Source of the DNA: Lactiplantibacillus mudanjiangensis
GTDB taxonomy: Bacteria > Bacillota > Bacilli > Lactobacillales > Lactobacillaceae
DNA: 64,000 bases
Assembly (NCBI RefSeq): GCF_005405385.1
Contig: NZ_BJDY01000003.1
Coordinates: forward strand, 62,001 to 126,000
Direction: 5' to 3'
Shown piece after piece: positions 2 through 63,726 of the stretch. The translations under genes were made by a program, and so were the position numbers. Position 1 is the first letter of the stretch, and every line of letters begins with the position of its first letter. The notes beneath the pieces were generated by a model, which was not told where the DNA came from, did no database searches, and saw only the letters and a program-made list of their open reading frames with translations.

Positions 2-508
2 GCAACCGCACTTTTTAATGATGATGTCCCTGGGTTAAAACCAAACGTGACACTGCGTGAAGTCATGAATAGTTACGTTTATCCTAATAAACTCGCAGTT
101 GAGACTATTACGGGTAAAGATTTACGCCACGCTTTAGAGCGTTGTGCCGGTTACTTTCTTTTAAAAGATGGGCACGTGATTGTTAATCCGGAGTTCTTGC
201 ATCCAAAACTACGACATTATATTTATGACGTTTACAGTGGCGTTGACTATACTTTCGATTTAACACGACCACTGGGGCAGCGTGTGGTTCAATTAGATTA
301 TCATGGTCAAGCGATCCAACCTGATCAACCATTAACGGTCACCTTGAATCATTACCGCGCTGGTGGCGGTGGCAATTATCCCATGTATAACACCACCAAA
401 ATTGATCGCCAGTTACCAACTGACATGACCGTACTAATCGCCGACTACTTTGCTAAACATCCAGTCGTCACGGCCACTCAACCGACTAACTTTAAGGTGA
501 TTTACTAA
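2..508 (+). CDS. 2',3'-cyclic-nucleotide phosphodiesterase / 5'-nucleotidase family protein, C-terminal part (5' partial)
   Basis: The reading frame is open from the left edge of the window, so the N-terminal metallophosphatase domain lies outside. What remains, about 168 residues, matches the C-terminal substrate-binding domain of UshA/CpdB-type nucleotidases. Visible signatures are an ITGKDLRHALE segment, a DYTFDLTRPLGQRV segment and the glycine-rich NHYRAGGGGNYPMY loop that helps hold the nucleotide base. Such enzymes release phosphate from nucleotides or 2',3'-cyclic nucleotides, usually outside the cell, but this copy's substrate cannot be read from the fragment. An internal GTG at 47 is not the true start. 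The TAA stop at 506-508 lies inside the terminal CTAA of the repeat that follows. Confidence 0.85.
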   Translation, partial: ATALFNDDVPGLKPNVTLREVMNSYVYPNKLAVETITGKDLRHALERCAGYFLLKDGHVIVNPEFLHPKLRHYIYDVYSGVDYTFDLTRPLGQRVVQLDYHGQAIQPDQPLTVTLNHYRAGGGGNYPMYNTTKIDRQLPTDMTVLIADYFAKHPVVTATQPTNFKVIY

Positions 509-848
509 CGGTTGAAAGTTACTTTTACCCATAATCGCCAATCAAAAATAGACTAACTTGCCACCTACCGTTCGCCCACATTGATCCGGAACACTGTGGG
601 CGGACCGGTTCAGCCGAAAGGCGGTCTGAACCGTCGTTTTGAACCGCTAAACCCGCGTTTCAACAGCGCCAAGCTCTAAGCGATAAATCGCTAAGAGCTC
701 CCACGGCTGGGCTCAATGTGAGCTCACTCTTGGTTACAATGGTTTCTGAATTAATTAGTGTCCGCAAGTAACCGGAGTCAACCAGTGATGGCGCCGGCAG
801 AATCACTGGCTGACGGAGGTGGCTAATTTCGTTTTCAACTTTTATTAA
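505..848 (+). repeat. Intergenic palindromic repeat, copy A (second palindrome shortened)
   Basis: This is a member of the window-wide repeat family. It starts with CTAACGGTTGAAAG and ends with TTTCAACTTTTA, diverged versions of the terminal inverted repeat. Palindrome 1 is complete, with arms near CACATTGATCC and GGGCTCAATGTG and inner hairpins including the GCTCTAAGCGAT / ATCGCTAAGAGC pair. Palindrome 2 is reduced to a short stem made from CCAGTGAT and ATCACTGG. The copy sits between convergent genes, and its first bases supply the stop codon of the upstream nucleotidase gene. No protein is encoded. Confidence 0.8.
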
Positions 849-857
849 GCCGCATAA

Positions 858-891
858 AAAATGCGCGTCCAGTTTGTGTGGACGCGCATTT
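858..891 (-). terminator. Intrinsic terminator of the aldo/keto reductase gene
   Basis: A perfect 12-bp stem (860-871 with 879-890, arm AATGCGCGTCCA) with a 7-nt loop is followed on the minus strand by a run of T. It lies 20 bp past the stop of the minus-strand reductase gene. Confidence 0.85.
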
Positions 892-912
892 CGTTTATCA
901 GCTGATTAAGTT

Positions 913-1773
913 TTAGAAATTAACCGTATCAGGGTCGTTGGCTAAACCAGCAACACCACGTAAGCCATCAATTGTCGTCATATCATCGGCACTGAGTTCA
1001 AAATCAAAAATTTCAGTATTTTGAGCAATCCGATCAGCATGAACAGACTTTGGCAATGGTAAGAAACCATGTTGAAGTGACCAGCGTAAAACCACTTGTG
1101 CCACTGACTTGTCATACTTTTGTGCCATCGTTTGTAATGCTGGCACATCAAAGATCTTACCGGTACCAAGTGGACTGTAAGCTTCAGACAAGATGTCATG
1201 CGCATCGTTGTAAGCCACGATTTCCGGTTCCAAATCGCTAGGATTCAAGAAAATTTGGTTTACCGCTGGAATAACTTTCGCCGTTTTAAGTAACGCATCT
1301 AAATGCTTAGGACGAAAGTTCGAAACGCCAATGGCACGAACTTTACGTTCAGCGTACAATTCTTCCATTGCCCGCCAAGTATCAGCATTTAATTGTTCCC
1401 AACTATCACGCATCGCCGCTGGATTAGGCCAATGGATCAAATAGAGATCAACATAATCTAACCCTAACTTTTCCAGTGAGGTGGCTAAGGCCGCTTTGGT
1501 TTGATCATAACCATGATCAGCGTTCCATAACTTAGTTGTGACAAATAAGTCTTTACGAGCAACGCCACTATCAGCGATCGCTTTACCAACACTTTCTTCG
1601 TTGCCATAAGCAGCGGCAGTATCAATGTGCCGGTAGCCGGCTTTCAAAGCAGCTAAAACAGAATCATACGCCACTTGACCATCTGGTGTTTGCCAAGTGC
1701 CAAAACCAACGATTGGAATCTGTGTGCCGTTATTGAGTTCATAAGTATCGGTTAGTTTAGTTAACTGTGTCAT
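913..1773 (-). CDS. Aldo/keto reductase
   Basis: A 286-residue cytoplasmic NADPH-dependent oxidoreductase with the usual length of the AKR family. The catalytic tetrad is complete: Asp51 and Tyr56 (in HIDTAAAYGNEE), Lys81 (in TTKLW) and His114 (in DLYLIHWP). The IGVSNF segment and the C-terminal PLPKS segment that contacts the cofactor are also present. Related enzymes in lactobacilli are often called 2,5-diketo-D-gluconate reductases, but the true substrate is probably a small aldehyde or ketone and cannot be assigned from sequence. An AGGAGGG ribosome site precedes the ATG. The gene stands alone, divergent from the thrE pair. Confidence 0.93.
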   Translation of the reverse strand: MTQLTKLTDTYELNNGTQIPIVGFGTWQTPDGQVAYDSVLAALKAGYRHIDTAAAYGNEESVGKAIADSGVARKDLFVTTKLWNADHGYDQTKAALATSLEKLGLDYVDLYLIHWPNPAAMRDSWEQLNADTWRAMEELYAERKVRAIGVSNFRPKHLDALLKTAKVIPAVNQIFLNPSDLEPEIVAYNDAHDILSEAYSPLGTGKIFDVPALQTMAQKYDKSVAQVVLRWSLQHGFLPLPKSVHADRIAQNTEIFDFELSADDMTTIDGLRGVAGLANDPDTVNF

Positions 1774-1908
1774 CTACAAAACCCTCCTGTTTTTAATTAC
1801 ACGCTAAGTTTACCGGTTATGCCGCGCCAATCACAAGTAAACTGTTTCAAACCACTGCTATTTTTTAGGTTTCGTGAGAAAATAAATCTATCTAAGGAGG
1901 CCGTTCTC

Positions 1909-2661
1909 GTGGAAAAAACCAATTTAGTCATGCAAACAACCTTATTAGCTGGCGCTATCCTGCTTGAAAATGGCGCAGAAATTGCTCGTGTTGAAGATAC
2001 GATGCAACGAATCACCACCAACGCAGGCTATCCCGATGCCCAGATTTTCGTCTTGTTAACCGGGATTACGGTTGCACTGCCAGCAGTGCCTGCTAGTCAA
2101 GTTCGGGCAATTCATCGACGCGGGATGGATCTGGAAAAAGTCGATCAAGTAAATACGCTCTCACGCAAATTTGCGGCACATACGTTAACCTTATCAGAAT
2201 TTTCTGCGGCCCTAACGCGCGTAAATCAGGCCGTCCCCACCTTTCCATTTAGTTGGCTCTTACTGGCGTCATTAGTCGTCAGCGTGACGTTAATGGTCGC
2301 TTTTACGGGTCATGCGTCACCGGCTAATCTCATCACGTGTGCGTTAGCTGGCGGCATAGGATTTAGTGCTTTTGACCGGCTCAATCATCACAGTCCGTTG
2401 CGATTCTTAAGTGAATTTGTGGGCGCCTTTCTCATCGGCTTAGTCACCCTTGCCGGCCACTATCTCGGACTCCCTGATTATCACGCCGATGCCATCATTA
2501 TTGGCGCCATCATGCCGTTAGTGCCTGGCGTGGCGATTACCAATGCCGTTCGTGATACGATGACCGGTAATTTATTGAGCGGTCCTGCTCGCGCGATTGA
2601 GGCCATTCTCTCGGCCAGCGCGATCGGTCTCGGGATTGCATTAACATCATTTTTCTATTAA
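1909..2661 (+). CDS. Threonine/serine exporter family protein, N-terminal-domain subunit (ThrE/DUF1212)
   Basis: This encodes 250 residues from a GTG at 1909, chosen because AAGGAGG lies 8 bases upstream; the open frame extends 90 bp further but has no ribosome site there. The N-terminal soluble part has the family segment GAEIARVEDTMQR and a TGITVAL stretch. It is followed by about five hydrophobic segments and the signature MPLVPGVAITNAVRD. In Corynebacterium ThrE this domain is fused to the domain encoded by the next gene; in many Firmicutes they are separate, as here. The pair probably exports small amino acids or related solutes, with substrate unproven. It is the first gene of a two-gene operon. 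Confidence 0.87.
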   Translation: MEKTNLVMQTTLLAGAILLENGAEIARVEDTMQRITTNAGYPDAQIFVLLTGITVALPAVPASQVRAIHRRGMDLEKVDQVNTLSRKFAAHTLTLSEFSAALTRVNQAVPTFPFSWLLLASLVVSVTLMVAFTGHASPANLITCALAGGIGFSAFDRLNHHSPLRFLSEFVGAFLIGLVTLAGHYLGLPDYHADAIIIGAIMPLVPGVAITNAVRDTMTGNLLSGPARAIEAILSASAIGLGIALTSFFY

Positions 2662-2673
2662 GGAGGTCGCCAC

Positions 2674-3138
2674 ATGGGACATTGGTTAGTCACCACCGGC
2701 TTACTGCAAACGCTACTCGCCTATTTAGCGACCGCTGGCTTTGGCGTCTTGTTAAACATTCCACGGCGCGCCGTTAATTTAAGCGGCTGGGTAGGTGCTG
2801 CCGGTTGGCTCACTTATGAAGTGCTCTTTCAGTTGTTACCGACGACTGTCGATATCAAACTCGCTATTGGTAATTTAGTAGCCGCGGTCGTCATCGGCGT
2901 TGCCAGTGGTTTAGCAGCTCGTTATAAACAGATGCCGATGATCATTTTTAATATTCCAAGTCTCGTGCCACTCGTCCCTGGGGGGCAAGCTTATCGCGTG
3001 GTCCGTAACCTCGTGACTGGACATCCACAACTTGCCACGCACTATTTGTCACAAGTCGTCATTATCGCCGGCGTCATTGCCATTGGGTTTTTAATTGCGG
3101 AGTTCTGCAATCATTTATTTTTACATTTCAGCCATTAA
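2674..3138 (+). CDS. Threonine/serine exporter family protein, C-terminal-domain subunit (DUF3815)
   Basis: A 154-residue membrane protein with about four or five hydrophobic segments and the conserved NIPRRA and PSLVPLVPGGQAYR motifs. The second motif mirrors the MPLVPGVAITNA motif of the partner gene, as expected for the two homologous halves of ThrE. The ATG lies 8 bases after AAGGAGG and 12 bp after the stop of the partner, so both are surely co-translated from one message and likely form one transporter. Confidence 0.87.
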   Translation: MGHWLVTTGLLQTLLAYLATAGFGVLLNIPRRAVNLSGWVGAAGWLTYEVLFQLLPTTVDIKLAIGNLVAAVVIGVASGLAARYKQMPMIIFNIPSLVPLVPGGQAYRVVRNLVTGHPQLATHYLSQVVIIAGVIAIGFLIAEFCNHLFLHFSH

Positions 3139-3186
3139 AAACAGCATGCTCGCTAACGGATTTCTGACACACGTTTTATTTGGAGA

Positions 3187-3625
3187 CTAAAGGTTGAAAG
3201 CTACTTTCTAGCAATAATCGTTGATATGATAAGCATTCATCGATCAAAACTAGTCATACTTGCCGCCTACCATTCGCCCACATTGAGCCGGAACGCTTGT
3301 GGGTGGACTGGGCTCAATGTGGGCTCACTCTCGGTTATATTAGTGATTGATTAGTCTCTGCGATACAACCGGAGCCAGCCAGTGATGGCGCCGGCCGTGA
3401 AAATATCGTTAGTCTGGGTGATTTCCCCGGACTTTACGATATGGACGACTTTTGAGACTAGTGGTTTTGCTAGTCTCAAAAGCAAGGTGGATGCCCGCAT
3501 TTTGGCTGGAGCCGGTCCCCACAGCCGGCAGAATCATTGGCTGGCGTAGGTGGGTGATCAATCTAGCATGGCTTAAGTCAATTCTAGTAAAGCTTTTACC
3601 ATCATACTTAACTTTCAGCCTTTAG
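3187..3625 (+). repeat. Intergenic palindromic repeat, copy B (first palindrome shortened)
   Basis: It starts with CTAAAGGTTGAAAGC and ends with CTTTCAGCCTTTAG. The 7-bp direct repeat TTGGAGA flanks it at 3180-3186 and 3626-3632, which looks like a target-site duplication. Palindrome 1 has lost its interior: CACATTGAGCC is joined through a short stem to GGGCTCAATGTG. Palindrome 2 is complete, with outer arms GCCAGCCAGTGAT and ATCATTGGCTGGC and two inner hairpins. It lies between convergent thrE and uppP genes, immediately beside the uppP terminator. Confidence 0.88.
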
Positions 3626-3634
3626 TTGGAGATC

Positions 3635-3668
3635 AAAAAAAGCGTCTGGGCTTGTCCCAAACGCTTTT
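3635..3668 (-). terminator. Intrinsic terminator of uppP
   Basis: The stem AAAGCGT / ACGCTTT is extended by GGG/CCC pairs around a short loop. It is followed on the minus strand by seven T residues (the A run at 3635-3641), just downstream of the uppP stop. Confidence 0.82.
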
Positions 3669-3675
3669 GCTGTTT

Positions 3676-4503
3676 TTAATGAATGAAGGCGAAGTAGCCA
3701 ATCACTAAGACCCCTAGGACAATTCGATACCAGCCGAACGCCTTAAAGTCGTTTTTCTTGATGTAGTCGAGTAAGAAACGAATCGACAAGTACGCCACCA
3801 CGAAGGAAACAATGACCCCAACGGCTAAGACCATCCCTTGCAACCCCGCAAGTGAGTTGCCATGATCGAAATACTTGTAAAGTTTCAAGAGTGACGCCCC
3901 AAACATCGTTGGAATCGCCATAAAGAATGAGAATTCAGTTGCCACATACCGTGACGTCCCAATTAAGATCGCCCCTAAAATCGTTGCGCCTGAACGTGAC
4001 GTCCCTGGAATCAATGATAATAGTTGGAAAACCCCGATGAATAAGGCAGTCGTATAAGGCAAGGTCCGCAAATCCCCAAATTTAGGGGTTAAGGTCTTAT
4101 TGTGGTTTTCAATCACGATGAACAAGATCCCATAAATGATCAAGGTTGCTGAAACTACCGCCCAGTTCATCAAATGAGCATCCATCCAGTCATTTAACGG
4201 TAATCCGATAATGACCGATGGAATTACGGCCAAGATCACTTTACTCCATAACACCCATGTATCACGCTTTTCCACGTTACTCTTACGTGGTGACAATGGA
4301 TTTAACTTATGGAAGTAGATGACGACCACCGCCATAATGGCCCCCAGTTGAATGACCACATTGAACATATCAGTAAATTGCGTGGATTGTTGCATCTTAA
4401 TAAATTCATCCACTAACACCAAATGTCCTGTAGAACTAATCGGTAAGAATTCGGTAATCCCTTCAACAATCCCCAAGATTACCGCTTTAATAATATCTAA
4501 CAC
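3676..4503 (-). CDS. uppP: Undecaprenyl-diphosphatase (BacA/UppP)
   Basis: A 275-residue polytopic membrane enzyme that dephosphorylates undecaprenyl diphosphate and so recycles the lipid carrier for peptidoglycan and teichoic acid synthesis. It can give bacitracin resistance. Both family signatures are intact: [15 protein letters not shown] (residues 14-28, with Glu18 and His27) and PGTSRSGAT (residues 166-174, with Arg170). Length is typical. Translation starts at GTG, with GAAAGGA about 10 bases upstream. It is a single gene with its own terminator. Confidence 0.96.
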
Positions 4504-4628
4504 AAGTTGAATTCCTTTCTGTTGACGTGATTACCAATCGCAATCACTAGTTTAAGCTCACAAACCCTTTTATTATAGCAATCCCAATGCAACGTGAATA
4601 GCACAATTAAGTAAGGATTCAGTAAAGA

Positions 4629-5147
4629 TTAGGCCGATAAAGCCTGTAAAGCCGCTGTATAAATCGTTTTCGTCCGCTCATCAAAACAAACAATCTCAAT
4701 GCGTTGAATCATCGTGGCTGTCGTTTGAGCCGTGGTGAACAAGGTCTGTACCGCGATGGCTGCCGCTAATGGCAATGGAAAGTGGTAAATCCCCGTACTG
4801 ATAGACGGAAAGGCCACTGTTTGACAACCGTTCGTTGCCGCCAAATTAAGGCTATTGCGATAACTATTGGCTAGTAAGGTTAACTCTTGCTGGGTACCGC
4901 CATGCCAAACGGGACCTGGCGTATGCACCACAAATTTAGCCGGTAAGTTAAAACCCGGCGTGATTTTAGCCTCCCCCACTGCACAACCATGTAACGGCCG
5001 GCAAGCCGCGAGTAGCGCTGGTCCAGCGGCTCGATGAATGGCACCATCCACACCACCACCGCCTAATAAACTGGGATTAGCCGCATTGACGCTTGCATCG
5101 ACTGCCATCGTGGTAATATCACCACGAATCACCTCAATGTTCACCAT
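4629..5147 (-). CDS. Macrodomain protein (ADP-ribose / O-acetyl-ADP-ribose hydrolase type)
   Basis: 172 residues forming one macrodomain. The ligand loops are visible: [19 protein letters not shown] (about residues 20-38), with the conserved Asn-Ala-Ala-Asn and Gly-Gly-Gly-Val-Asp-Gly-Ala segments of the MacroD/YmdB group, and the later [10 protein letters not shown] loop. Members of this group hydrolyse O-acetyl-ADP-ribose or remove ADP-ribose from proteins or nucleic acids. The gene starts two bases after the stop of the upstream TetR gene and is thus translated with it. The pairing with a dedicated TetR regulator suggests a stress-linked role, which is inference. Confidence 0.9.
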
Positions 5148-5149
5148 CC

Positions 5150-7272: not shown

Positions 7273-7361
7273 CTAAAGATTGAACATTAAATCGGCCGAT
7301 CAGAAGTAGATCATCTTGCCGCCTACCGTTCACCCACATTGAGCCGGAACGCTGTAGGCGC
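7273..7361 (+). repeat. Intergenic palindromic repeat, copy C (left-end fragment)
   Basis: It begins CTAAAGATTGAA, then matches the left end of full copies through CTTGCCGCCTACCGTTC and into the first arm of palindrome 1 (CCCACATTGAGCCGGAACGC). It stops before the second arm. The rest of the element is missing, and the fragment runs into the terminator of the marR gene. Confidence 0.7.
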
Positions 7362-13270: not shown

Positions 13271-13343
13271 GGGCCCTTAGCTCAGTTGGGAGAGCGCCTG
13301 CTTCGCATGTAGGAGGTCGTCGGTTCAAATCCGGTAGGGTCCA
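13271..13343 (+). tRNA. tRNA-Ala (anticodon CGC)
   Basis: A 73-nt cloverleaf. The acceptor strand GGGCCCT pairs with AGGGTCC, the D arm is GCTCAGTTGGGAGAGC, the anticodon stem CCTGC/GTAGG encloses loop TTCGCAT with anticodon CGC (codon GCG), and the T loop is TTCAAAT. The 3' CCA is not encoded: the bases after the discriminator A are TCA. It stands alone, with its own promoter and terminator. Confidence 0.93.
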
Positions 13344-23754: not shown

Positions 23755-25662
23755 ATGAAATTTCAACAATTCTTAACGAAGCATACCACTCAAATCACCC
23801 TGATCACCGGGATTTTAATTATCCTCGGTTATCTCAGTCAATATCTCTTACAGTTTACCCGCGGCTATCAACTCAGCCTCATCGCGGCGTCAATTATCGC
23901 CGTCGTTCCCATTGCGAGTCGCGCTTGGAGCGCTTTGATCAATAAAGTTTTTAGTATCGAACTACTGGTCAGCATCGCTGTCATCGGTGCCTTTATCATT
24001 GGCGAATTCAACGAGTCGGCCATTGTGACCTTCTTATTCTTATTTGGATCTTACCTCGAAAGCAAGACTTTACAAAAAACACGAACGGCCATTAAAGGCC
24101 TGACGGAAATGGCCCCAACCACTGCGACTGTCGTGACGACGACTGGCACTAAAACGGTTGACGTTGATGACGTCGATGAAGGCGATCTCGTCCTCGTTAA
24201 AACCGGTGGGCAAATTCCCGTTGACGGTCTCGTTACTGAAGGTAATGGCTACCTTAATGAAGCTTCAATTACTGGCGAATCACGGCCAATCGTTAAAACG
24301 ACCGGTGACCCTGTTTATGCAGGGACCTTGGTTGAAAACGGCTACGTTAAATTAACGGCGACCCAAGTTGGTGATGATACCACTTTCGCTAAAATCATTG
24401 AGCTGGTTGAAGAAGCACAAGATACCAAATCCAAAGCCGAAAAATTCATCGACCGCTTTGCCCAATATTATACCCCTGCTGTCTTAGTCTTATCCTCGCT
24501 GGTGTTCATTTTTTCACGTGATTTTCGCCTCGCCATTACCGTATTAGTGCTCGGCTGCCCAGGAGCCTTGGTCATTGGGGCCCCCGTCTCAAACGTCGCA
24601 GGGATCGGTAACGGCGCCAAACGCGGGATCCTCATCAAGGGCGGCGAAGTAATCGATACCTTCGCCAAAGTTGACACGTTAGTCTTTGATAAGACTGGTA
24701 CCTTAACCCAAGGCAAAACAGCTGTCACGAGTTTCAAAGCTTATCAGCCAACAACCACCGCTATTCTGACAACCGCTGCGGCAATTGAAAGGCTTTCCGA
24801 TCATCCCCTCGGTCAAGCAATCGTGACATATGCGCAACAACACCCAACGTCAATGAGTGCACCAACGCTAACCACAACTGAAACCGTTAAAGGTCAAGGT
24901 ATCACTGCCCAAATTGCACAACAACAGGTGGTCATTGGAAATCAAAAATTACTTGCAGCCCACCATATTAAGCTCACTACTGCTCAATTGGCCGATCTAA
25001 ATACGATGCAACAAGCTGGCCAATCAACGGTCATCATGGCCACTGATGGTCAAGTTCAAGCAATCTTTGGCATTGCTGACCAAATTCGACCACAAGTTAA
25101 AGCATCTTTGGCTGCTTTGAAAGCTCAAGGCATCAAGCGCCTAGTCATGCTCACTGGAGACAACCAACTGACAGCCAACGCCGTCGCTCATGAATTAGCC
25201 ATTGATGACGTTCATGCTAATTTGATGCCCGCCGAAAAAGTCACCTACGTCCAACAACTGCAAGCAGCTGGGCATACCGTCGCCTTTATTGGAGACGGCA
25301 TTAACGACAGTCCATCCATTGCCAACGCCGATATTGGGATTGCGATGGGCAGCGGCACCGACGTCACGATCGAAACGTCCGATGTCGTGTTGATGCAATC
25401 GAGTTTTCCCGCGCTCGTTCACGCCCATGGCTTAGCTAAGAAAACGGTACTGAATACACGTGAAAACATCTTTATTGCAATTGCGACTGTAGCCTTCTTA
25501 TTAGTTGGCCTAATCTTTGGCTATATCTATATGGCTAGCGGTATGTTCGTCCACGAAGCCAGCATTTTGGTCGTTATCTTTAATGCCATGCGCTTGCTTA
25601 AATTCAAAACTAACTTCGATAAAACCCAAGCTCAATCACCAACAACGCCAGTAACGGCTTGA
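23755..25662 (+). CDS. Heavy-metal P-type ATPase (P1B-like, CPG motif)
   Basis: 635 residues, no N-terminal metal-binding domain. About eight membrane segments are expected. The actuator loop has TGESRP, the membrane motif is Cys268-Pro-Gly (in LGCPGALVIG) rather than the usual CPC, the phosphorylated residue is Asp312 in DKTGTLT, and LSDHPLGQAI and GDGINDSPSIANADIG complete the set. It pumps a metal ion out of the cell, but CPG makes copper, cadmium or zinc assignment uncertain. The FNR-type box upstream links it to the FLP regulator. Its TGA stop falls within repeat copy D. Confidence 0.9.
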   Translation: MKFQQFLTKHTTQITLITGILIILGYLSQYLLQFTRGYQLSLIAASIIAVVPIASRAWSALINKVFSIELLVSIAVIGAFIIGEFNESAIVTFLFLFGSYLESKTLQKTRTAIKGLTEMAPTTATVVTTTGTKTVDVDDVDEGDLVLVKTGGQIPVDGLVTEGNGYLNEASITGESRPIVKTTGDPVYAGTLVENGYVKLTATQVGDDTTFAKIIELVEEAQDTKSKAEKFIDRFAQYYTPAVLVLSSLVFIFSRDFRLAITVLVLGCPGALVIGAPVSNVAGIGNGAKRGILIKGGEVIDTFAKVDTLVFDKTGTLTQGKTAVTSFKAYQPTTTAILTTAAAIERLSDHPLGQAIVTYAQQHPTSMSAPTLTTTETVKGQGITAQIAQQQVVIGNQKLLAAHHIKLTTAQLADLNTMQQAGQSTVIMATDGQVQAIFGIADQIRPQVKASLAALKAQGIKRLVMLTGDNQLTANAVAHELAIDDVHANLMPAEKVTYVQQLQAAGHTVAFIGDGINDSPSIANADIGIAMGSGTDVTIETSDVVLMQSSFPALVHAHGLAKKTVLNTRENIFIAIATVAFLLVGLIFGYIYMASGMFVHEASILVVIFNAMRLLKFKTNFDKTQAQSPTTPVTA

Positions 25663-26106
25663 GTCAGGCTAAGTTTGCCAACTACGCCAGCCAGTGATTC
25701 TGCCGGCTGTGGGGACCGATTCCAGCCAAAAATCGGGCTTCCACCTCGCTTTTAAGCCTAGCTAAAACCGCTAGTCTCAAAAGTCGTCCACATCGTAAGC
25801 CAGGAAAAATCGTCCGGACTAACGATGTTTTCACGGCCGGCGCCATCACTAGCTGGCTCCGGTTATATCGTGGAATTAATCAATCTAGTAACTATCATAA
25901 CCGAGAGCGAGCTCACATTGAGCCCAGCCGTGGGAATCTCTTAGCGATTTATCGCTTAGAGATTGGCGCTTTTGAAACGCGGTTTTAGCGGTTCAAAACG
26001 ACGGTTCAGACCGCTTTTTGGCTGGGCCGGTCCGACCACAGCGTTCCGGCTCAATGTGGGCGAACGGCAGGTGGCAAGTAAGCACCGATCTACTTTCGAT
26101 CTTTAG
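25655..26106 (-). repeat. Intergenic palindromic repeat, copy D (reverse orientation, both palindromes)
   Basis: Read on the minus strand it starts near CTAAAGATCGAAAG and runs through both complete palindromes. The far terminal repeat is missing: the homology begins at GCTTGAGTCAGGCTAA, inside the last codons of the P-type ATPase. The gene's TGA stop is part of the repeat. It separates the ATPase from the thioredoxin operon. An apparent upstream extension of the thioredoxin frame into this repeat is not real. Confidence 0.83.
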
Positions 26107-28224: not shown

Positions 28225-28899
28225 ATGTCGAACCACGCCACACATGAATGTGTACAGCTTGTCCCTATCTTTCAAGCCTTAGCGGACGAGCAACTAGATA
28301 CGATTGAATCAATCGTGCAGCATCGTCATTACCAAGCTGGCGAAACCTTGTTCAGCGCAACTGACGATCTGGATAGTCTCATGATTGTTGCTAACGGTCA
28401 AGTCAAGGTCTATCAACTTGCCGCCAACGGTCGTGAACAGTTGCTTTACTTACTCCAAACTGGGGACATCGATGGTGAGGCCGCTTTATTTGAAAATCAG
28501 CAGCGAACTTCTTATGGTGAAGCACTCGTTCCAACTGACATTTGTCGGATTCGGCGCCAAGACTTTCAACAATTGATGCAATCTTACCCGAGCATCAGCA
28601 TCAATGTCTTGAATGTTTTTGGTAAACGCCTCGCTCAGTTAGAAAAGCAAACGACCAGAACTGCCACTGAATCCGTCGAAGCCCGGTTAGCAACGTACTT
28701 AACCGAGACGGCCGCTAGTTTAAAAGTCTCAACTTTCAAATTACCCTTAAAGAAAAAAGACTTGGCGACCTTTTTAGGCACGACACCCGAAACCATCAGT
28801 CGCAAACTCACTCGTTTTGAACAGCAAGGCTTTATTACCCAAAAACCTGGCAAATTGATTCAAATTAATGATGCTGATCAACTCTTATTAGTTGACTAA
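28225..28899 (+). CDS. flp: FNR-like protein (FLP), Crp/Fnr family redox regulator
   Basis: 224 residues. A cyclic-nucleotide-binding-like sensor fold (about residues 15-130) is joined by a long helix to a winged helix. The recognition helix reads TPETISRKL: the Glu, Ser and Arg of the ExxSR motif are those with which FNR reads TTGAT. Cys9 (in HECVQLVPIF) and Cys107 (in DICRI) sit where FLP of Lactobacillus casei forms a redox disulfide; there is no iron-sulfur cysteine cluster. Two matching boxes nearby mark the P-type ATPase and chaperone/Dps operons as targets. The TAA stop lies in the terminus of repeat copy E. Confidence 0.9.
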   Translation: MSNHATHECVQLVPIFQALADEQLDTIESIVQHRHYQAGETLFSATDDLDSLMIVANGQVKVYQLAANGREQLLYLLQTGDIDGEAALFENQQRTSYGEALVPTDICRIRRQDFQQLMQSYPSISINVLNVFGKRLAQLEKQTTRTATESVEARLATYLTETAASLKVSTFKLPLKKKDLATFLGTTPETISRKLTRFEQQGFITQKPGKLIQINDADQLLLVD

Positions 28900-29440
28900 A
28901 GGTTGAAAGCTAGGTTTTAGCAATAATCGTTGACATGATAAGTATTCATCGGTCAAAACTAGTCATACTTGCCACCTACCGTTCGCCCACATTGAGCCGG
29001 AACGCTGTGGGCGGACCGGTTCAGCCAAAAAGCGGTCTGAACCGTCGTTTTGAACCACCAACCCCGTGTTTCAAAAGCACCAGACTCTAAGCGATAAATC
29101 GCTAAGAGCTTCCCACGGCTGGGCTCAATGTGTGCTCACTCTCGGTTATGATGGTGATTACGAAATTGATTGGTAGTCGCAATACAACCGGAGCCAGCCA
29201 GTGATGGCGCCGGCCGTGAAAATATCGTTAGTCCGGGTGGCTTTCCCGGGCTTACGATGTGGACGACTTTTGAGACTAGCGATTTTATCTAGGCTCAAAA
29301 GCGAGGTGGCAGCCCGCACTTTGGCTGGAACCGGTCCCCACAGCCGGCAGAATCGCTGGCTGGCGTAGGTGACAAATTTAATCCAACTTAAGTCAATGTT
29401 GGTAAGGCTTCGACCAATACATTTAACTTTCAACCTTTAG
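28896..29440 (+). repeat. Intergenic palindromic repeat, copy E (complete, best copy)
   Basis: 545 bp from CTAAAGGTTGAAAGC to CTTTCAACCTTTAG. A perfect 8-bp duplication TTAGTTGA flanks it (28888-28895 and 29441-29448). Palindrome 1 pairs CACATTGAGCC with GGCTCAATGTG and contains the hairpins GGTTCAG/CTGAACC and AGCGAT/ATCGCT. Palindrome 2 pairs GCCAGCCAGTGAT with ATCGCTGGCTGGC and contains ATCGTTAGTCC/GGACTTTACGAT-type and CTTTTGAG/CTCAAAAG hairpins. Removing the element restores flp ending in GTT GAA TAA. Confidence 0.92.
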
Positions 29441-33978: not shown

Positions 33979-33998
33979 GTTATCTAGTTGCTTTAATA

Positions 33999-34031
33999 CT
34001 TGCCACCTACCATTCGCTCGCGTAGGTGACT
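33999..34031 (+). repeat. Intergenic palindromic repeat, copy K (minimal remnant)
   Basis: Only the outer flanks of the two palindromes remain: CTTGCCACCTACCATTCGC is fused to TCGCGTAGGTGAC. Everything between and both terminal repeats are gone. It lies between the convergent nox and lectin-WxL genes. Confidence 0.6.
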
Positions 34032-34048
34032 AATCGGCTAATTATTGA

Positions 34049-40128: not shown

Positions 40129-40599
40129 CTAAAGGTGAAAGTTAAGCTTGAGTCAGGCTAAATTTCCACCTACGCCAGCCAGTGATTCTGCCAGCTGTGG
40201 GGACCGGCTCCAGCCAAAGACCGGGCTTCCACCTCGCTTTTGAGCCTAGCCAAAACCGCTAGTCTCAAAAGTCGTCCACATCGTAAGCCCGGCAAAACCA
40301 TCCGGACTAACGATGTTTTCACGGCCGGCGCCATCACTGGCTGGCTCCGGTTATCTTGTAGTCGTTAATTGATTTAGTAACCATCATAGCCGAGAGTGAG
40401 CTCACATTGAGCCCAGCCGTGGGAGGCTCTTAGCGATTTATCGCTTATAGTCTGGCGCTTTTGAAACACGGGGTTGGTGGTTCAAAACGACGGTTCAGAC
40501 CGCTTTTTGGCTGAACCGGTCCACCCACAGCGTTCCGGCTCAAGGTGGGCGAATGGTAGGCGGCAAGTCGCTTCTATTTTTAATCATCACAACCTTTAG
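40129..40599 (-). repeat. Intergenic palindromic repeat, copy F (reverse orientation, both palindromes)
   Basis: It starts with CTAAAGGTGAAAGTTAAG and ends with CACAACCTTTAG. The flanks TCAGTTTAA (40120-40128) and TCAATTTAA (40600-40608) match at 8 of 9 positions, a probable target duplication that includes the stop codon of the tetR gene. Both compound palindromes are present. It lies between that gene and the convergent csc cluster 2. Confidence 0.87.
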
Positions 40600-49162: not shown

Positions 49163-49699
49163 CTAAAGGTTGAAAGCTATTTTTAGTAATAATCGTTGAT
49201 ATGATAAGCATTTATCGATCAAAACTAGTCATACTTGCCACCTACCGTTCGCCCACCTTGAGCCGGAACGCTGTGGGCGGACCGGTTCAGCCAAAAAACG
49301 GTCTGAACCGTCGTTTTTGAACCGCCTAAACCGCGTTTCAAAAACGCCTGGCTCTAAGCGATAAATCGCTAAGAGCCCCCACGGCTGGGCTCAATGTGCG
49401 CTCACTCTCGGTTATGATAGTGACCGCTATTGGTATTCGCAATACAACCGGAGCCAGCCAGTGATGGCGCCGGCCGTAAAAATATCGTTAGTCCGGGTGA
49501 TTTTTCCGGACTTTACGATATGGACGACTTTTGAGACTAGTGGTTTTGGCTAGACTCAAAAGCGAGGTGGAAGCCCGTACTTTGGCTGGAGCCGGTCCCC
49601 ACCCGGCAGAATCACTGACTGGCGTAGGTGATCAATTTAACATGACTTAAGTCAATTCTAGTAAAGCTTTTACCGTCATACTTAACTTTCAACCTTTAG
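49163..49699 (+). repeat. Intergenic palindromic repeat, copy G (complete)
   Basis: 537 bp from CTAAAGGTTGAAAGC to CTTTCAACCTTTAG, both palindromes present. TCAAAGC flanks both sides (49156-49162 and 49700-49706), a 7-bp target duplication extendable by the terminal TAG. The TAA stop of sbcC (49696-49698) is inside the terminus. Without the element sbcC would end GAC TAG, giving the same protein. Confidence 0.91.
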
Positions 49700-54866: not shown

Positions 54867-54891
54867 ATCTCACGACTGACGGTCGTTGTGT

Positions 54892-55231
54892 TAAATGAGT
54901 CACCTACGCCAGCCAGCGATTCTGCCGGCTGTGGGACCAGCGCCATCACTGGCTGGCTCCGGTTGTATTGCGAATATCAATCAATTTCGTAATCACCATC
55001 ATAACCGAGAATGAGTCCACATTGAGCCCAGCCGTGGGAATCTCTTAGCGACTTATCGCTTAGAGATTGGCGCTTTTGAAACACGGGCCTGGTGGTTCAA
55101 AACGACGGTTCAGACCGCATTTTGGCTGAACCGGTCCGCCCACAGCGTTCCGGCTCAAGGTGGGCGAACGGTAGGTGGCAAGTCGATCTAGTTTTAGTTG
55201 CTGGACACTTATCATATCAACGATTGTAAGC
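54892..55231 (-). repeat. Intergenic palindromic repeat, copy H (reverse, palindrome 2 shortened, ends lost)
   Basis: Palindrome 1 is complete. Palindrome 2 keeps only the outer arms, CCAGCCAGCGAT and ATCACTGGCTGG, with a short centre. The conserved subterminal stretch ending ATCAACGATTGTAAGC is present, but the CTTTCAACCTTTAG terminus is missing, replaced by the aarF terminator. Between convergent aquaporin and aarF-family genes. Confidence 0.82.
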
Positions 55232-55261: not shown

Positions 55262-55265
55262 CCGC

Positions 55266-57149: not shown

Positions 57150-57451
57150 ACAGATTAACAAAGCGCGTTGAGAAACACAGTAAATTAACGATTCAGGGCT
57201 AAGCGAGTGTCAGATTGGTGAAAGGACATCCCAGAATCTTAATTGAAAATCAGTTTCGAGCGACTGTTGCGAAACCCTTCGGCTAGCGACAGGTGGGTGC
57301 TCCCATTATTGAGCCAGGGTATCGTTAGTGACCGGTCACTAGCCGTACCTGTGAGGTTGTTATTGTGAAATAGCAACAAAGCTAAGGTGGTAACGCGTTT
57401 TTAAACGTCCTGGTGAACTGAATGCAAATTCAGTTGCTAGGACGTTTTTTT
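57150..57451 (+). promoter_or_regulatory. T-box leader of brnQ with terminator
   Basis: The T-box core AAGGTGGTAACGCG (57384-57397) matches 12 of 14 positions of the family consensus. The UGGU in it should pair with an ACCA tRNA end (discriminator A). Stem I features (GGTGAAAG distal loop, GAATCTTAATT specifier region near 57232-57250) lie upstream, and a strong terminator (57403-57451) pairs AAACGTCC with GGACGTTT. The specifier could be read as ATC (Ile), CTT or TTA (Leu). Confidence 0.87.
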
Positions 57452-58874: not shown

Positions 58875-58884
58875 GCCGTTTATT

Positions 58885-58923
58885 AAAAATGCACTTGTCA
58901 GCAATTGACGAGCGCATTTTTTT
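58885..58923. terminator. Bidirectional terminator after brnQ
   Basis: AAAAATGC pairs with GCATTTTT and GTCA with TGAC around a short loop, between convergent brnQ and the hicB-like gene. Confidence 0.82.
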
Positions 58924-58928
58924 GGCGT

Positions 58929-59201
58929 TTAAACCTGTCCAATTTCTACCTCAACTAAGGTCACAATCGTTGGTGCACTTACCACTGGCAAATGCGTCTC
59001 GCTAGCCGGAACCTCTTTACCACGTACGATCAGTTCACTGGCCGCTAGTCCCATGTAAGTCCGAGCTTGGCGCATGCCATCGGCCACAGAACGACCTTGC
59101 GTTTCACCTTGAAAGGCTGGAATTTCGACTAAATAAGGTGTCGGCTGATTCGCCGGCACGTAACTCATAATTACGGGATAAACCCGCCATGTTTCCGTCA
59201 T
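58929..59201 (-). CDS. HicB-like protein (orphan antitoxin-type fold)
   Basis: 90 residues from the ATG at 59201 (GGGAG 8 bases upstream). The partial RNase-H fold of HicB antitoxins appears as YPVIMSYVPANQPTPYLVEIPAF, then GETQGRSVADGMRQARTYMG. A classical HicB would also carry a C-terminal DNA-binding domain and sit beside a HicA mRNA-interferase. Neither is present, so it is an orphan or has a different role. Confidence 0.75.
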   Translation of the reverse strand: MTETWRVYPVIMSYVPANQPTPYLVEIPAFQGETQGRSVADGMRQARTYMGLAASELIVRGKEVPASETHLPVVSAPTIVTLVEVEIGQV

Positions 59202-59296
59202 GATACTGTCTCCCAAATTAGGACACTATCCTACCCAACTTAACCATAGCAATCTTAGCCCCAAAAGACGATTAAAAGCGGTTATAATTTTATTGA

Positions 59297-59506
59297 TATA
59301 CCTACGTCAGTCAGTGATTCTACCAGCTATGGGGGACCGTGCCCAGCCGTGGGGGCGCTTAGCGATTTATCGCTTAGAGCCCGGCGCTTTTGAAACGCGG
59401 GTTGAGCGGTTCAAAACGACGGTTAAGACCGCCTTTTGGCTTAACCGGTCCACCCACAGCGTTCCGGCATTGAGTGGGCGAACGACAGGCGACAAGCTGG
59501 TCCAGC
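59297..59506 (-). repeat. Intergenic palindromic repeat, copy I (heavily reduced)
   Basis: The start of palindrome 2 (CCTACGTCAGTCAGTGATTC) is fused directly to the second half of palindrome 1 (CCCAGCCGTGGG onward). It ends near GGCGACAAGCTGG, without terminal repeats. The sequence is more diverged than other copies, for example GGTTAAGACCGCC in place of GGTTCAGACCGC. It lies between the hicB-like and glpF genes, beside the glpF terminator. Confidence 0.75.
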
Positions 59507-59542
59507 TAAAAAAAGCCGCCTCAGTTTACACTGAAAACGACT
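59507..59542 (-). terminator. Probable terminator of the dhaKLM-glpF operon
   Basis: An imperfect stem centred on TCAGT/ACTGA with outer AGCCG/CGACT pairs, and seven A residues on the left forming the minus-strand T tract. Confidence 0.6.
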
Positions 59543-59559
59543 CTTCTAATGAACCAAAT

Positions 59560-60276
59560 CTAATGAAGCCAAGCTTGCAAGCCAGCGGCCAAAATCCCCC
59601 CGACTAACGGGCCACACATCGGGACCCAAGCATAAGCCCAGTTAGCATCAGACTTATTTGGTACAGGTAAGATCGTATAAGCCAACCGTGGCGCCCAGTC
59701 ACGCGCTGGATTAATCGCGAAGCCGGTTGTTCCGCCTAACGTTAACCCAACCACGACGATCAACAACCCCACAATCAACGGTTTCAATCCTTGCGTAAAG
59801 TTACCAAGATTCAATAGTGGGAAGATAAAGAAGAACGTCGCAATCACTTCGCTCAAAAAGTTAAATAACGGATTAGGGATCGCTGGACCTGTCGCAAAGA
59901 TCCCAACACTATTACCATCTGCTGGACTTTTAGCCGCTTTAAAGTGTGGGTAGTATTGAATCATGATCACAACTGCCCCAACGAATGCGCCTAAAAACTG
60001 ACCAACTAGATAAGGTAAAACTTGGGCCCAAGGAAAGAAACCAAATAACGCAAACGCAATTGTGACCGCTGGGTTCAGATGGCCTTGCGACCCAAATTGA
60101 CCAGCAACATACACCCCAAACGTGACGGCTAAGCCCCAGGCTAACGCAATAAACGTCCAGTTTTGGCCTTTTGTGTACGTCTGTTTCAAATTAACGGCCG
60201 CACCACTCCCGACCCCAAAGACAATCAATACCAACGTGCCTAAAAATTCACCTAAAAATCCCTGCATCCCGCTCAC
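59560..60276 (-). CDS. glpF: Glycerol facilitator (GlpF)
   Basis: 238 residues, six membrane segments. Pore motifs are GHLNPAVT and GFAINPARDW; Asp after the second NPAR marks a glycerol channel. It also may pass dihydroxyacetone. It lies 6 bp after dhaM as the last gene of the dihydroxyacetone operon, an order known from other lactic acid bacteria. Confidence 0.94.
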   Translation of the reverse strand: MSGMQGFLGEFLGTLVLIVFGVGSGAAVNLKQTYTKGQNWTFIALAWGLAVTFGVYVAGQFGSQGHLNPAVTIAFALFGFFPWAQVLPYLVGQFLGAFVGAVVIMIQYYPHFKAAKSPADGNSVGIFATGPAIPNPLFNFLSEVIATFFFIFPLLNLGNFTQGLKPLIVGLLIVVVGLTLGGTTGFAINPARDWAPRLAYTILPVPNKSDANWAYAWVPMCGPLVGGILAAGLQAWLH

Positions 60277-60282
60277 CGTTCC

Positions 60283-60651
60283 TTACTTAATTTTAAGTGG
60301 GGCTAATTGTGCTTCGACCGCCGCCAAATCAACGCCAGCCTGTACTAATGACGCGGCTGTATACGCACTTTCGACCAATGCCGTATCGTATAAATGAACC
60401 GTTTTATCGCTCATTTCAATCGCCATTTCTAGGTTCATCTTGGCACTACCTAAGTCATAAAACGCTAATAATTCATCGGCGTCATTGGCGTCAAAAGCCG
60501 CGCTAATCTTGGCCATACTGGTCCCAACTTCTTGATCATCGGTTCCGCCAGCAAAAGTAATCGACACATCGGCGGCGACTTGTTTAATCAAGGTCGTGAC
60601 ACCAGCCGCAATTTCAGGGACATGTGAAACCACCACAATACCTAAACTCAT
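60283..60651 (-). CDS. dhaM: Dihydroxyacetone kinase phosphotransfer subunit DhaM (EIIA domain only)
   Basis: 122 residues. The EIIA-mannose-like domain with the phosphorylated His10 in GIVVVSHVPEIAAG. It takes phosphate from HPr and passes it to ADP bound on DhaL. It lacks the HPr and EI-like extensions of the E. coli protein, as in Lactococcus. It overlaps dhaL by four bases (ATGA). Confidence 0.94.
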   Translation of the reverse strand: MSLGIVVVSHVPEIAAGVTTLIKQVAADVSITFAGGTDDQEVGTSMAKISAAFDANDADELLAFYDLGSAKMNLEMAIEMSDKTVHLYDTALVESAYTAASLVQAGVDLAAVEAQLAPLKIK

Positions 60652-61235
60652 GCTTGTGCCTCCGTTTCTAATAATGCTGTAAACAGATAACCACTAGAAA
60701 CCGCACCAGGATCGAGATGACCAATCGCCCGTTCACCTAAGTAGGAAGCCCGACCTTTTTTCGCAATCATCGGTTTTGTGCTGTCAACGGCCGTGGCAAT
60801 CAATGTCGCATCCAACTTGTCTGCTTGCACAGCGGCGACGACCGGTACCCAAACATCCAGCATGGTCTTGTCACCAGCTTGCGCACCACCACGTTTTTCA
60901 ATCCCAGCTAAAGCCGCCGCAAGTAGTGTCGGTAAATCTGTCGTGCCGGCTTTGCTAGCTTTCGCCATCTCCAAAAAGGCCGTCCCATATAATGGCCCAG
61001 AAGCCCCGCCGACTTTACTAATCAACGCCATCGCTACCGTCTTAAAGACCGTTGTTAAATCCGCATCCGTTTGGGTGGCTAACGCGGCTTGCACCGCGGT
61101 CATCCCACGTGCCATATTATTGCCGTGATCGCCATCACCAATTGGGGTATCCAAGTCACTCAAATACGCCTTATTCGTCGCAATAGCATCACCAAATTTA
61201 GTTAACCAAGTTGTTGCTGCTTGTGCTGTAAACAT
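60648..61235 (-). CDS. dhaL: Dihydroxyacetone kinase ADP-binding subunit DhaL
   Basis: 195 residues from the ATG at 61235, which has AAAGGA 8 bases upstream; two earlier in-frame ATGs lack that spacing. The ADP-magnesium site is TPIGDGDHGNNMARG, followed by GGASGPLYGTAFLEM, GDKTMLDVW and ASYLGERAIGHLDPGA. It holds ADP permanently as a cofactor and transfers phosphate to dihydroxyacetone on DhaK. Confidence 0.95.
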   Translation of the reverse strand: MFTAQAATTWLTKFGDAIATNKAYLSDLDTPIGDGDHGNNMARGMTAVQAALATQTDADLTTVFKTVAMALISKVGGASGPLYGTAFLEMAKASKAGTTDLPTLLAAALAGIEKRGGAQAGDKTMLDVWVPVVAAVQADKLDATLIATAVDSTKPMIAKKGRASYLGERAIGHLDPGAVSSGYLFTALLETEAQA

Positions 61236-61249
61236 TGTCGTCATCCTTT

Positions 61250-62245
61250 CTACCATGCAATTGTTTTAACCGGATAGGTCAAATAATCAAGCCATTTAGC
61301 ATCCGTTAATTCAAAGATTGTTAATGAAATTCCCGCCATTTCAATGGACGTCATGTAGTTACCAACCTTCATAAAGGCTGGTTTAATCCCTTTTTCAGCT
61401 AAGGCATCGAGTAAGTCATGGCTAAAGATATATTGTTCCATCAATGGCGTAGCACCCATACCATTCACTAAAACAGCATATTGATGACTAGCATCTAAGT
61501 GCAAACGCTCATCAATCTTAGCCAACAATTCAGTGACTAATGCCTTAGATGGTTTGATTTTTTCACGTCGATAACCCGGTTCACTATGAATACCGACGCC
61601 ATACTCGATTTCATCATCAGCTAATTCAAAACCTGGTTTGCCCACTTCAGGTACCGTGGCCGCCGATAAAGCTACCGCTACGGTATTGAGGTGTGGCAAA
61701 ACGGCTTGGGCTAATTGAGAGAGTTCATCTAAGCTTGCGCCTTGATCAGCCGCTGCACCCAAGACTTTATGCATCAGGACAGTTCCAGCCACGCCACGGC
61801 GACCTTGCGTATAAAGACTGTCTTTTACAGCAATATCATCGTCAACCACAATTGATTGCACCTCGATATCATCCATCTCGGCCATATCTTTGGCCATGTC
61901 GAAGTTCATCACATCACCGGAATAATTCTTAACAACTAAGAAGACCCCTTGGCCTTGATCCACAGCTTTAATCGCTGCATAAATCTGATCAGGCGTTGGT
62001 GACGTAAAGACTTGGCCAGCTACTGCAGCACTCAACATGCCTTGACCAACAAAACCAGCATGAGCCGGTTCATGACCACTACCGCCACCACTGACGATCC
62101 CAACTTTGCCAACCATTGAGGCCGTATCACTACGGACCATCGCCAACGTATCGGGCACTTGTTTTAAATATTGTGGATACGCGCGGACGAGGCCATCGAC
62201 CATTTCAGGAACCACATCTTGAGGAGCATTGATAATCTTTTTCAT
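61250..62245 (-). CDS. dhaK: Dihydroxyacetone kinase substrate-binding subunit DhaK
   Basis: 331 residues. It binds dihydroxyacetone covalently through His220 in GVGIHSEPGYR. Other landmarks are GGGSGHEPAHAGFVG (residues 53-67), VKNYSGDVMNFDMA and DDDIAVKDSLYTQGRRGVAGTV. First gene of the dhaKLM-glpF operon. GAAAGGA precedes the ATG. A cre-like site and a palindromic operator lie just upstream. Confidence 0.95.
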   Translation of the reverse strand: MKKIINAPQDVVPEMVDGLVRAYPQYLKQVPDTLAMVRSDTASMVGKVGIVSGGGSGHEPAHAGFVGQGMLSAAVAGQVFTSPTPDQIYAAIKAVDQGQGVFLVVKNYSGDVMNFDMAKDMAEMDDIEVQSIVVDDDIAVKDSLYTQGRRGVAGTVLMHKVLGAAADQGASLDELSQLAQAVLPHLNTVAVALSAATVPEVGKPGFELADDEIEYGVGIHSEPGYRREKIKPSKALVTELLAKIDERLHLDASHQYAVLVNGMGATPLMEQYIFSHDLLDALAEKGIKPAFMKVGNYMTSIEMAGISLTIFELTDAKWLDYLTYPVKTIAW

Positions 62246-62287
62246 CTTGACTCACGATCCTTTCTGAATTTACTCTTTCATTGTATA

Positions 62288-62301
62288 TGAATCCGCTTAC
62301 A
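62288..62301 (-). promoter_or_regulatory. cre-like site upstream of dhaK
   Basis: On the minus strand TGTAAGCGGATTCA matches 13 of 14 positions of the CcpA consensus. It lies between the operator and the TACAAT-type -10 of dhaK. Confidence 0.62.
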
Positions 62302-62308
62302 ATTACGA

Positions 62309-62332
62309 CGGACAAAATCACTAAATTGTCCG
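62309..62332. promoter_or_regulatory. DhaS-type palindromic operator between dhaK and dhaQ
   Basis: Perfect 7-bp arms CGGACAA and TTGTCCG separated by 10 bp. The pattern GGACA-N12-TGTCC is very close to the DhaS operator reported in Lactococcus lactis. It lies upstream of dhaK on one side and about 34 bp before the TATAAT (62366-62371) of dhaQ on the other. Confidence 0.7.
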
Positions 62333-62401
62333 GTATTGCTTGGCAGGCTCTTAGATTAAGTGCGGTATAATAGCCGTAAACGCTTGAAAGCTGGTGTGCA
62401 C

Positions 62402-63394
62402 ATGCAAATTATTAATGAACCGGACCAAGCCCTCGCCCAAGCAGTGCAAGGTATTCAGTGGACCTATCCTGAGCTAGCTTGGGTTCCCGACACGTACGGT
62501 TGTTATGATCGTCATTTTGCTGACAACCAGATCCCACTATTGGCTGGTGGTGGTAGTGGACACGCCCCAGCTCATTGGGGCTATGTCGGCCACGGCATGT
62601 TGACTGGCGCCGTCATGGGCACAATTTTCACGCCACCAACCGCTGAACAAATTGTTAAGGTTGCGCAGGCGATGACCCATCAACGACGACTCTTTTTGAT
62701 CGTTAAAAACTTTCCCGCCGATGTTAAGGCCTTTAAGACTGCCCAAACAACCCTACAAGACCAAGGTTGGGACGTGGGTATGGCCCTCGTGGCTGACGAT
62801 ATTTCCGTCGATAATGCCTCCTTAAAACAGCGACGTCGCGGCGTGGCCGGCACGGTTCTTATCCATAAGCTCTTAGGTGCGGCGGCCGCTAATGGGGCCA
62901 CCATGGCCGAATTAACAACCCTCGCGCAACACGTCACCGCCGCCACCAAAACCATTGGGGTCGCGACTAGTGGTGCCCTGATTCCTGGTCAAGCCGACGC
63001 CTCATTCACCTTAAATCCTGGTGAAATTTATTATGGCATTGGAATTCACGGTGAGCCTGGCTATCGACAAGAACCATTCCAATCATCAGAACGACTTGCC
63101 CAAGAACTGATTAGTAAATTACGACTTAACTTTCAATGGCACGCCCACGATCATTACGCCGTCTTAGTCAATTCTTTGGGTGGCATTACCCCGTTGGAAC
63201 TAATGGTCTTTAATCACGATGTGCATGAATTACTACAACTCGACCAGTTAGCGCTCGACTTTCATCAAGCGGGAACCTTCCTAACATCAAATGGAATGCA
63301 TGGGCTTTCTTTAACATTGCTGCACCTCGAACAAACTGACTGGTTAGCTGCCCTGAACATGCCGGTTAAAACACCGGCATGGCCAAATCATTAA
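62402..63394 (+). CDS. dhaQ: DhaQ-like coactivator (DhaK paralog)
   Basis: 330 residues from the ATG at 62402, aligned with the DhaK start; a GTG at 62360 would add 14 unrelated residues. It is homologous to DhaK and keeps the substrate His216 (GIGIHGEPGYR) and GGGSGHAPAHWG, but the KNYSGDVMNFDMA region is changed to KNFPADVKAFKTA and the rest has diverged. In Lactococcus the paralog DhaQ senses dihydroxyacetone and activates the TetR-type regulator DhaS. The divergent position from dhaK and the operator between them support that role over a second kinase. Confidence 0.82.
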   Translation: MQIINEPDQALAQAVQGIQWTYPELAWVPDTYGCYDRHFADNQIPLLAGGGSGHAPAHWGYVGHGMLTGAVMGTIFTPPTAEQIVKVAQAMTHQRRLFLIVKNFPADVKAFKTAQTTLQDQGWDVGMALVADDISVDNASLKQRRRGVAGTVLIHKLLGAAAANGATMAELTTLAQHVTAATKTIGVATSGALIPGQADASFTLNPGEIYYGIGIHGEPGYRQEPFQSSERLAQELISKLRLNFQWHAHDHYAVLVNSLGGITPLELMVFNHDVHELLQLDQLALDFHQAGTFLTSNGMHGLSLTLLHLEQTDWLAALNMPVKTPAWPNH

Positions 63395-63402
63395 GTTAGT
63401 AT

Positions 63403-63726
63403 CTAAAGGATAAAAATTGTTTTTTAGTGACAGGTACACGCTCAACTTGCCACCTACCGTTCGCCCACGTTGAGCCGGAGCCAGTCAGTGATGGCGCCGG
63501 CCGTGAAGACAGCGTTAGTCCGGATGATTTTTCCGGGATTACGCTGTGGACGACTTTTGAGACTAGCGGTTTTGGCTAGGCTTTAAAGCGAGGTTGAAGC
63601 CCGCACTGTGGCTGAAACCGGTCCCCACAGCCGGTAGAATCACTGGCTGGCGTAGGTGGCAAATTTAGCATGACTGAAGTCAAAACTAGTCAAGTTGCTG
63701 CCGCATCTTTATCTTTCAACCTTTAG
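63403..63726 (+). repeat. Intergenic palindromic repeat, copy J (palindrome 1 deleted)
   Basis: It starts CTAAAGGATAAAAATTG and ends CTTTCAACCTTTAG. After TTCGCCCACGTTGAGCCGGA it jumps directly into palindrome 2 (GCCAGTCAGTGATGG), a join at the shared GAGCCGGA/CCGGAGCC motif, so palindrome 1 has been lost precisely. Palindrome 2 is complete. The right terminus contains the TGA stop of the convergent TetR gene. Confidence 0.87.

Follow-up and report, generated by a model that had tools for sequence, protein, structure and literature searches.

Bacterial miniature inverted-repeat transposable elements (MITEs) that are moved by an insertion sequence with the same ends are already known, as are repeats with RNA structure. 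The available part of PMC3049150 describes the BOX, RUP and SPRITE repeats of Streptococcus pneumoniae as high-copy, intergenic and modular, with strong RNA structure and enrichment between convergent genes. REP and BIME repeats are folded and intergenic and occur singly or in inverted pairs (PMC3733652, in the part available), and GOLLD, ROOL and OLE are large, branched, conserved bacterial RNAs, GOLLD coming partly from Lactobacillales (PMC12286853, likewise in part). Here we describe a repeat family of Lactiplantibacillus mudanjiangensis, starting from a 64,000-nucleotide stretch (the window; contig NZ_BJDY01000003.1, positions 62,001 to 126,000) of its 3.29 Mb genome (13 contigs). Its copies have 14-bp inverted ends and carry a folded module. 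We think it a little likelier to be right than wrong that the family is a MITE moved by an IS4-family transposase, with the module as a cargo that is selected as RNA and promotes the spread of its own copy.

Each of the described systems resembles this family in part. The features given above for BOX, RUP and SPRITE in the available text are found here too, but the host is another one and the module extends over 11 genera with compensatory change; the BOX sequence was compared through Rfam scans only. Like REP and BIME as excerpted, the module is intergenic, folded and either single or inverted-paired, whereas the unit is larger (~185 nt), the carrier has inverted ends and target duplications, and the Y1 transposase is absent from six module-bearing genomes. 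The module is large-branched and conserved like GOLLD, ROOL and OLE in the part of the source available, but Rfam 15 gave no match over the window elements at gathering score, nor, with E allowed up to 1 or 3, over the modules of 17 additional loci. With IS4-family insertion sequences and their MITEs the family shares the same 14-bp ends, short target duplications and a MITE that lacks a transposase; unlike in those MITEs, the interior is not derived from the insertion sequence and consists of one or two conserved folded modules that the insertion sequence lacks. No description of this repeat was found in the open papers searched. The view of the initial annotation that the family has no established name thus holds for Rfam 15 and for that literature (subscription papers and ISfinder lay outside the search). 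As far as our searches show, a covarying module that crosses genera on carriers with different ends is undescribed in either.

Full copies had been annotated as holding two distinct compound palindromes. Both are real, but they match each other when inverted and are divergent copies of one ~185-nt branched module in two orientations, which the initial annotation had missed. The outer stem of the module leads to a junction that bears hairpin A; beyond it, a short GGA/UCC stem connects to a further junction, from which hairpins B and C emerge. Conserved bases of the module include CGAGG and GGUCCCCACAGC. In an alignment of 33 modules from 12 genomes, hand-chosen among high-scoring hits (A1), 94.5% of 1774 cells paired, a value that leans toward the structure because the latter was itself derived from this alignment with RNAalifold and then edited by hand (seven pairs were added and one was taken out). 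Both sides had changed in 43 of the 54 pairs, compared to 29.4 ± 2.2 in shuffled and 16–21 in slid alignments, and the covariation score was 0.571 vs 0.201 after shuffling. A second class of ~150 nt (class II), without hairpin C and in most copies with an internal loop GGCUCAG / GUUCCAG, was present in nine further genomes. Its alignment (A2; 16 of 20 class II loci, four near copies having been dropped) contained double changes in 40 of 48 predicted pairs. Both module classes therefore show the compensatory stem change expected of a functional RNA, and such changes are plentiful between species.

Selection on the fold was examined by comparing changes shared among copies with rare ones. In the genome of the window, the comparison covered 94 right and 86 left modules, and changes counted as shared at ≥4 copies and as rare at ≤2 (exactly 3 was left out). 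Shared changes comprised 23 single G-U, 2 single A-C, 5 other single and 16 compensated double changes; the rare class held 26, 38, 39 and 26, respectively. In the second species (genome G292), the G-U:A-C ratio was 6:0 among shared changes, with 26 doubles, and 9:6 among rare ones, with 15 doubles. In the third (G375), it was 1:0 with 29 doubles and 22:16 with 30 doubles. Pooled over the three species, shared single changes mostly retain an RNA pair (30 G-U, 2 A-C), a tendency that the rare ones lack (57:60; Fisher P 1.4e-6); variants within a family are not independent. A first count in the window's genome, by letter rarity, had given 22 G-U and 17 A-C rare cells. The alignment used also mattered: G375 modules aligned to A1 yielded 50 G-U, 38 A-C and 248 gap cells, and in their own alignment the numbers were 94 to 17. 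Shared changes in unpaired columns of the window's genome leaned the other way, with 13 in the G-U direction and 26 in that of A-C. A mutation bias therefore fails to account for the excess at paired positions. Left modules are encoded on the DNA strand opposite to right modules, and both sets are biased in their own sense; this speaks against cruciforms and against a function tied to one of the two strands.

From these comparisons we infer that the fold is kept as RNA in the lineages that multiply, and single inserted copies seem to be under weak or no selection once inserted. The initial annotation had allowed for very large branched structures of RNA or DNA; such structures are possible, with RNA better supported than duplex DNA. 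The palindromes could instead be DNA hairpins, cruciforms or leftovers of a plain MITE in which RNA is irrelevant. The ends and duplications alone explain mobility, many deletion derivatives lack a full module, and the insertion sequence moves without it. We nevertheless consider this quite improbable, given the strong covariation over 12 genomes and an excess of shared G-U over A-C in the sense of each module, on opposite strands, which a duplex cruciform does not predict.

The places of the family in the window are as follows (each module's strand in brackets).

Copy A, 505..845, plus strand: left end with 1 mismatch; left module 563–731 (–); right-module fragment 769–825 (+); right end with 3 mismatches.
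Copy B, 3187..3625, plus strand: both ends (one mismatch); left module mostly deleted; right module 3366–3556 (+); target duplication TTGGAGA.
Copy C, 7273..7360, plus strand: left fragment only, ~90 bp, with one poor end.
Copy D, 25655..26106, minus strand: modules 25675–25865 (–) and 25903–26072 (+); only the right end recognisable (2 mismatches).
Copy E, 28896..29440, plus strand: full reference copy with perfect ends 28896–28909 and 29427–29440; left module 28974–29143 (–), right module 29185–29375 (+); target duplication TTAGTTGA.
Copy F, 33996..34033, plus strand: remnant of ~35 bp, based on a 22-base blastn match.
Copy G, 40129..40599, minus strand: modules 40163–40353 (–) and 40387–40566 (+); ends degenerate.
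Copy H, 49163..49699, plus strand: full, with perfect ends; modules 49235–49414 (–) and 49445–49634 (+); target duplication TCAAAGC.
Copy I, 54885..55225, minus strand: module fragment 54897–54965 (–) and module 55002–55181 (+); ends not recognised.
Copy J, 59300..59497, minus strand: module 59327–59490 (+) with deletions; ends not recognised.
Copy K, 63403..63726, plus strand: left end degenerate (3 mismatches); left module mostly deleted; right module 63472–63662 (+); right end perfect.

A blastn search with copies D, E and G found the family at all 11 places named in the initial annotation, which confirms that the repeats are real. Only E and H are full-length with perfect 14-bp ends, however; C and F are scraps and the others are incomplete, with A, G and K having internal deletions or degenerate ends. 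The 11 places sum to 3801 bases, or 5.9% of the window, in agreement with the annotated 6%, and contain 15 module matches, including two fragments.

In the whole genome, the 14-bp end CTAAAGGTTGAAAG (≤1 mismatch) occurred 63 + 69 = 132 times, compared to 0 + 0 for the reversed control. At least 40 long matches to the full element were obtained (the best 40 of 226 candidates, all long). Among 41 complete copies (both ends within 3 mismatches), exact target duplications of 7 bp (12 copies), 8 bp (12) or 9 bp (3) flanked 27, compared to 1.8% with shuffled flanks, and 14 had none. These duplications are 80% A+T, the window 56%. A 17-base form of the end was present in 8 of 60 genomes, including this one, all of one genus, and in 13 stretches of viral contigs; the full element had no match in plasmids. 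The nearest copy of the 94 right modules was 93.3% identical (median; maximum 96.4%), and the family may accordingly be quiet in this genome. Five loci (L110, L113, L115, L123 and L124) are derivatives of ~80–310 bp that retain both ends and have mostly lost the interior. Elsewhere, assemblies end inside or at these ends, on contigs C20, C22, C28 and C52 of G008 (L137, L145, L152 and L181) and C7, C36, C37 and C53 of G330 (L300 and L308), which suggests several near-identical, perhaps active, copies in both genomes.

Insertion sequences with the same ends were found in four related genomes, two of them with an intact transposase gene. The 1565-bp copy in G008 has perfect ends and a 451-amino-acid open reading frame (ORF), and the 1559-bp copy in G019 has a 440-amino-acid ORF. 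In G017, the insertion sequence between the ends measures 1509 bp and its ORF is broken; the ORF of the G011 copy is split. G019 shows the insertion sequence's own duplication, GACTTTA; none was clear at G008, G011 or G017. The transposase matches NF049925 with 481.6 and 435.9 bits (cut-off 250), which assigns it to the IS4 family, and carries an exact YREK motif. The pattern Y(2)R(3)E(6)K, a spacing that we take to be the IS4-family rule, is present in L160, L159 and L397. Relatives of the transposase, 49–51% identical, lie on plasmids of L. brevis, L. crispatus and L. fermentum with related ends CTGAAACTTGAAAG.

In the window's own genome, only a deleted remnant of the insertion sequence was found (C2:537758-538151), and PF01609 had 0 matches. 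No scored module lay within 620 bp of 26 of the 100 ends listed (132 exist). The 20 stretches around such ends contained mostly element copies or deletion derivatives, together with the insertion-sequence remnant (L111), a ~80-bp copy (L113) and one apparent chance match (L119); no autonomous insertion sequence was among them. The same-ended IS4-family insertion sequences in relatives, together with the target duplications, support the view that the copies are IS4-type MITEs, probably moved in trans by the transposase of that insertion sequence. The annotated MITE family, with its inverted ends, 7–9 bp duplications and lack of a transposase, is thereby upheld, and a full insertion sequence with the same terminal repeats does exist in related genomes; this partner and the reach of the module beyond the MITE had been missed.

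We also considered that the family might be REP/BIME-like, with a tyrosine (Y1) transposase as its mobiliser, since the inverted pairs of folded units resemble BIMEs and 21 of 41 genomes have Y1 transposase matches. This is very improbable indeed: the inverted ends and 7–9 bp duplications indicate a DDE transposase, and the one Y1 match in the window's genome has an internal stop. As a mobiliser, the tyrosine transposase is further disfavoured by its lack in six genomes that carry modules (no Y1 match in G004, G008, G014, G016, G018 and G020).

The module was detected in 110 of 397 Lactobacillaceae genomes and 11 of 40 genera, a scan with strict filters and six candidates scored per genome in which misses are likely. 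At the level of the order, the widest group covered, 23 of 395 genomes matched, 22 within Lactobacillaceae and one marginally elsewhere (E 1e-4). Fuller counts gave at least 150 modules in the window's genome (150 of 150 scored, of 1060 candidates), at least 120 in G020 (120 of 150) and at least 150 each in G292 and G375 (150 of 150). A scan of genome contigs returned 10 stretches, of which 8 belong to Levilactobacillus and 2 to a metagenome-assembled genome, the named hits being four Levilactobacillus species and that assembly; the right module had no match in phages. A strongly covarying RNA-like fold in 110 of the 397 genomes searched is without an Rfam 15 match.

Two modules occupy the same two sites of orthologous loci in Levilactobacillus yonginensis and L. 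tongjiangensis (L094 and L096), so some insertions are old. These long inverted module pairs were also considered as an autonomous element and rejected, as the enclosed genes lack transposase features (ORFs judged by eye). In G034, a single class II module (L290, 1501–1656, minus strand) lies between a T-box leader and the following gene, which by eye reads like a valine tRNA synthetase.

Another genus carries the module in a MITE with other ends, so the module can be a passenger separable from its carrier. The modules looked at in G375 (genus g4) occur singly, and some sit in MITEs with ends ACGYGTGGTGCTAGTTRA, a pattern found in 4 of 36 genomes of the genus; the reversed control occurred once, in one other genome. 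Duplications of 7–9 bp were recognised by eye (TAGGTTATT in L302, GAGTGTAT in L315 and AAGTAATT in L314), and AATTATAC (L217) was found automatically. The 3' end of the module lies within a few bases of one end, for example in L296, L309, L312 and L313. The ends of one G375 locus (L234) resemble the first kind and are flanked by a 9-bp duplication. For the carrier with the second kind of ends, no transposase was found. In G383, an element at ~1503–1890 of L311 begins with the second kind of end and contains an end of the first kind, CTAAAGGTTGAAAGGTA, a possible nesting.

With genes taken as ORFs, 90 elements of the window's genome are flanked by convergent (40), co-directional (44) or divergent (6) genes, compared to 7, 29 and 13 element-free pairs in the window (P 5e-5, convergent vs divergent). 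The same excess between convergent genes is reported for the pneumococcal repeats in the available part of PMC3049150. Such sites would suit an RNA that serves the host and is kept by it, either because the module stabilises or tunes transcripts nearby or because it works in trans. The convergent excess (40/90 vs 7/49), the conserved junction bases and the compensated doubles among rare variants too are consistent with this reading, although parasite survival predicts the same excess. With more than 100 copies per genome, rare single changes that ignore the fold (57 to 60), and modules on the strand of the upstream gene in 24 of 50 cases in G375 (no preference) and 19 of 30 in G292 (a weak one), we regard service to the host as unlikely.

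Under our preferred reading of an IS4-moved MITE with RNA cargo, the transposase of the same-ended insertion sequence would move the MITE in trans, and the module would be transcribed, either from its own promoter or by read-through. Transcription from either side of a divergent pair would meet one sense module. The fold would then make propagation of its own copy more likely, for instance through binding to a host or transposition factor. The 84 aligned spacers share a CGGTTATRAT stretch that could be a –10 box.

Several observations weigh against this reading. In copy E, the search for a promoter-like site gave none. The four insertion-sequence loci of relatives and three more distant ones gave no module match, and the transposase therefore does not need the module. 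The automatic test for ends plus duplication was failed by 48 of 50 single modules in G375 and 30 of 30 in G292. Compensated doubles are common among rare variants (26 in the window's genome, 15 in G292, 30 in G375), so the rare class mixes young changes with small lineages of greater age, and the G-U/A-C counts by themselves overstate the case for drift of single copies. A similar pattern could also remain if the module once served the host and later became redundant.

More tentatively, and as a possibility that we rate well below even, the module may itself be the unit on which selection acts, a selfish RNA passenger nearly confined to Lactobacillaceae so far, which switches transposon ends and whose fold aids copying of the carrier in cis. 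If so, this passenger would be an RNA-dependent aid to bacterial DNA transposition. If RNA structure aids the spread of DNA transposons, MITE biology gains a new component, one open to testing in food bacteria that are harmless. For any repeat, shared single changes can be set against rare ones to ask whether the structure benefits the element, in its spread, or the host of each copy.

The window also contains a T-box leader (57159–57415) and a tRNA (13271–13343), which were its sole Rfam matches at gathering score.

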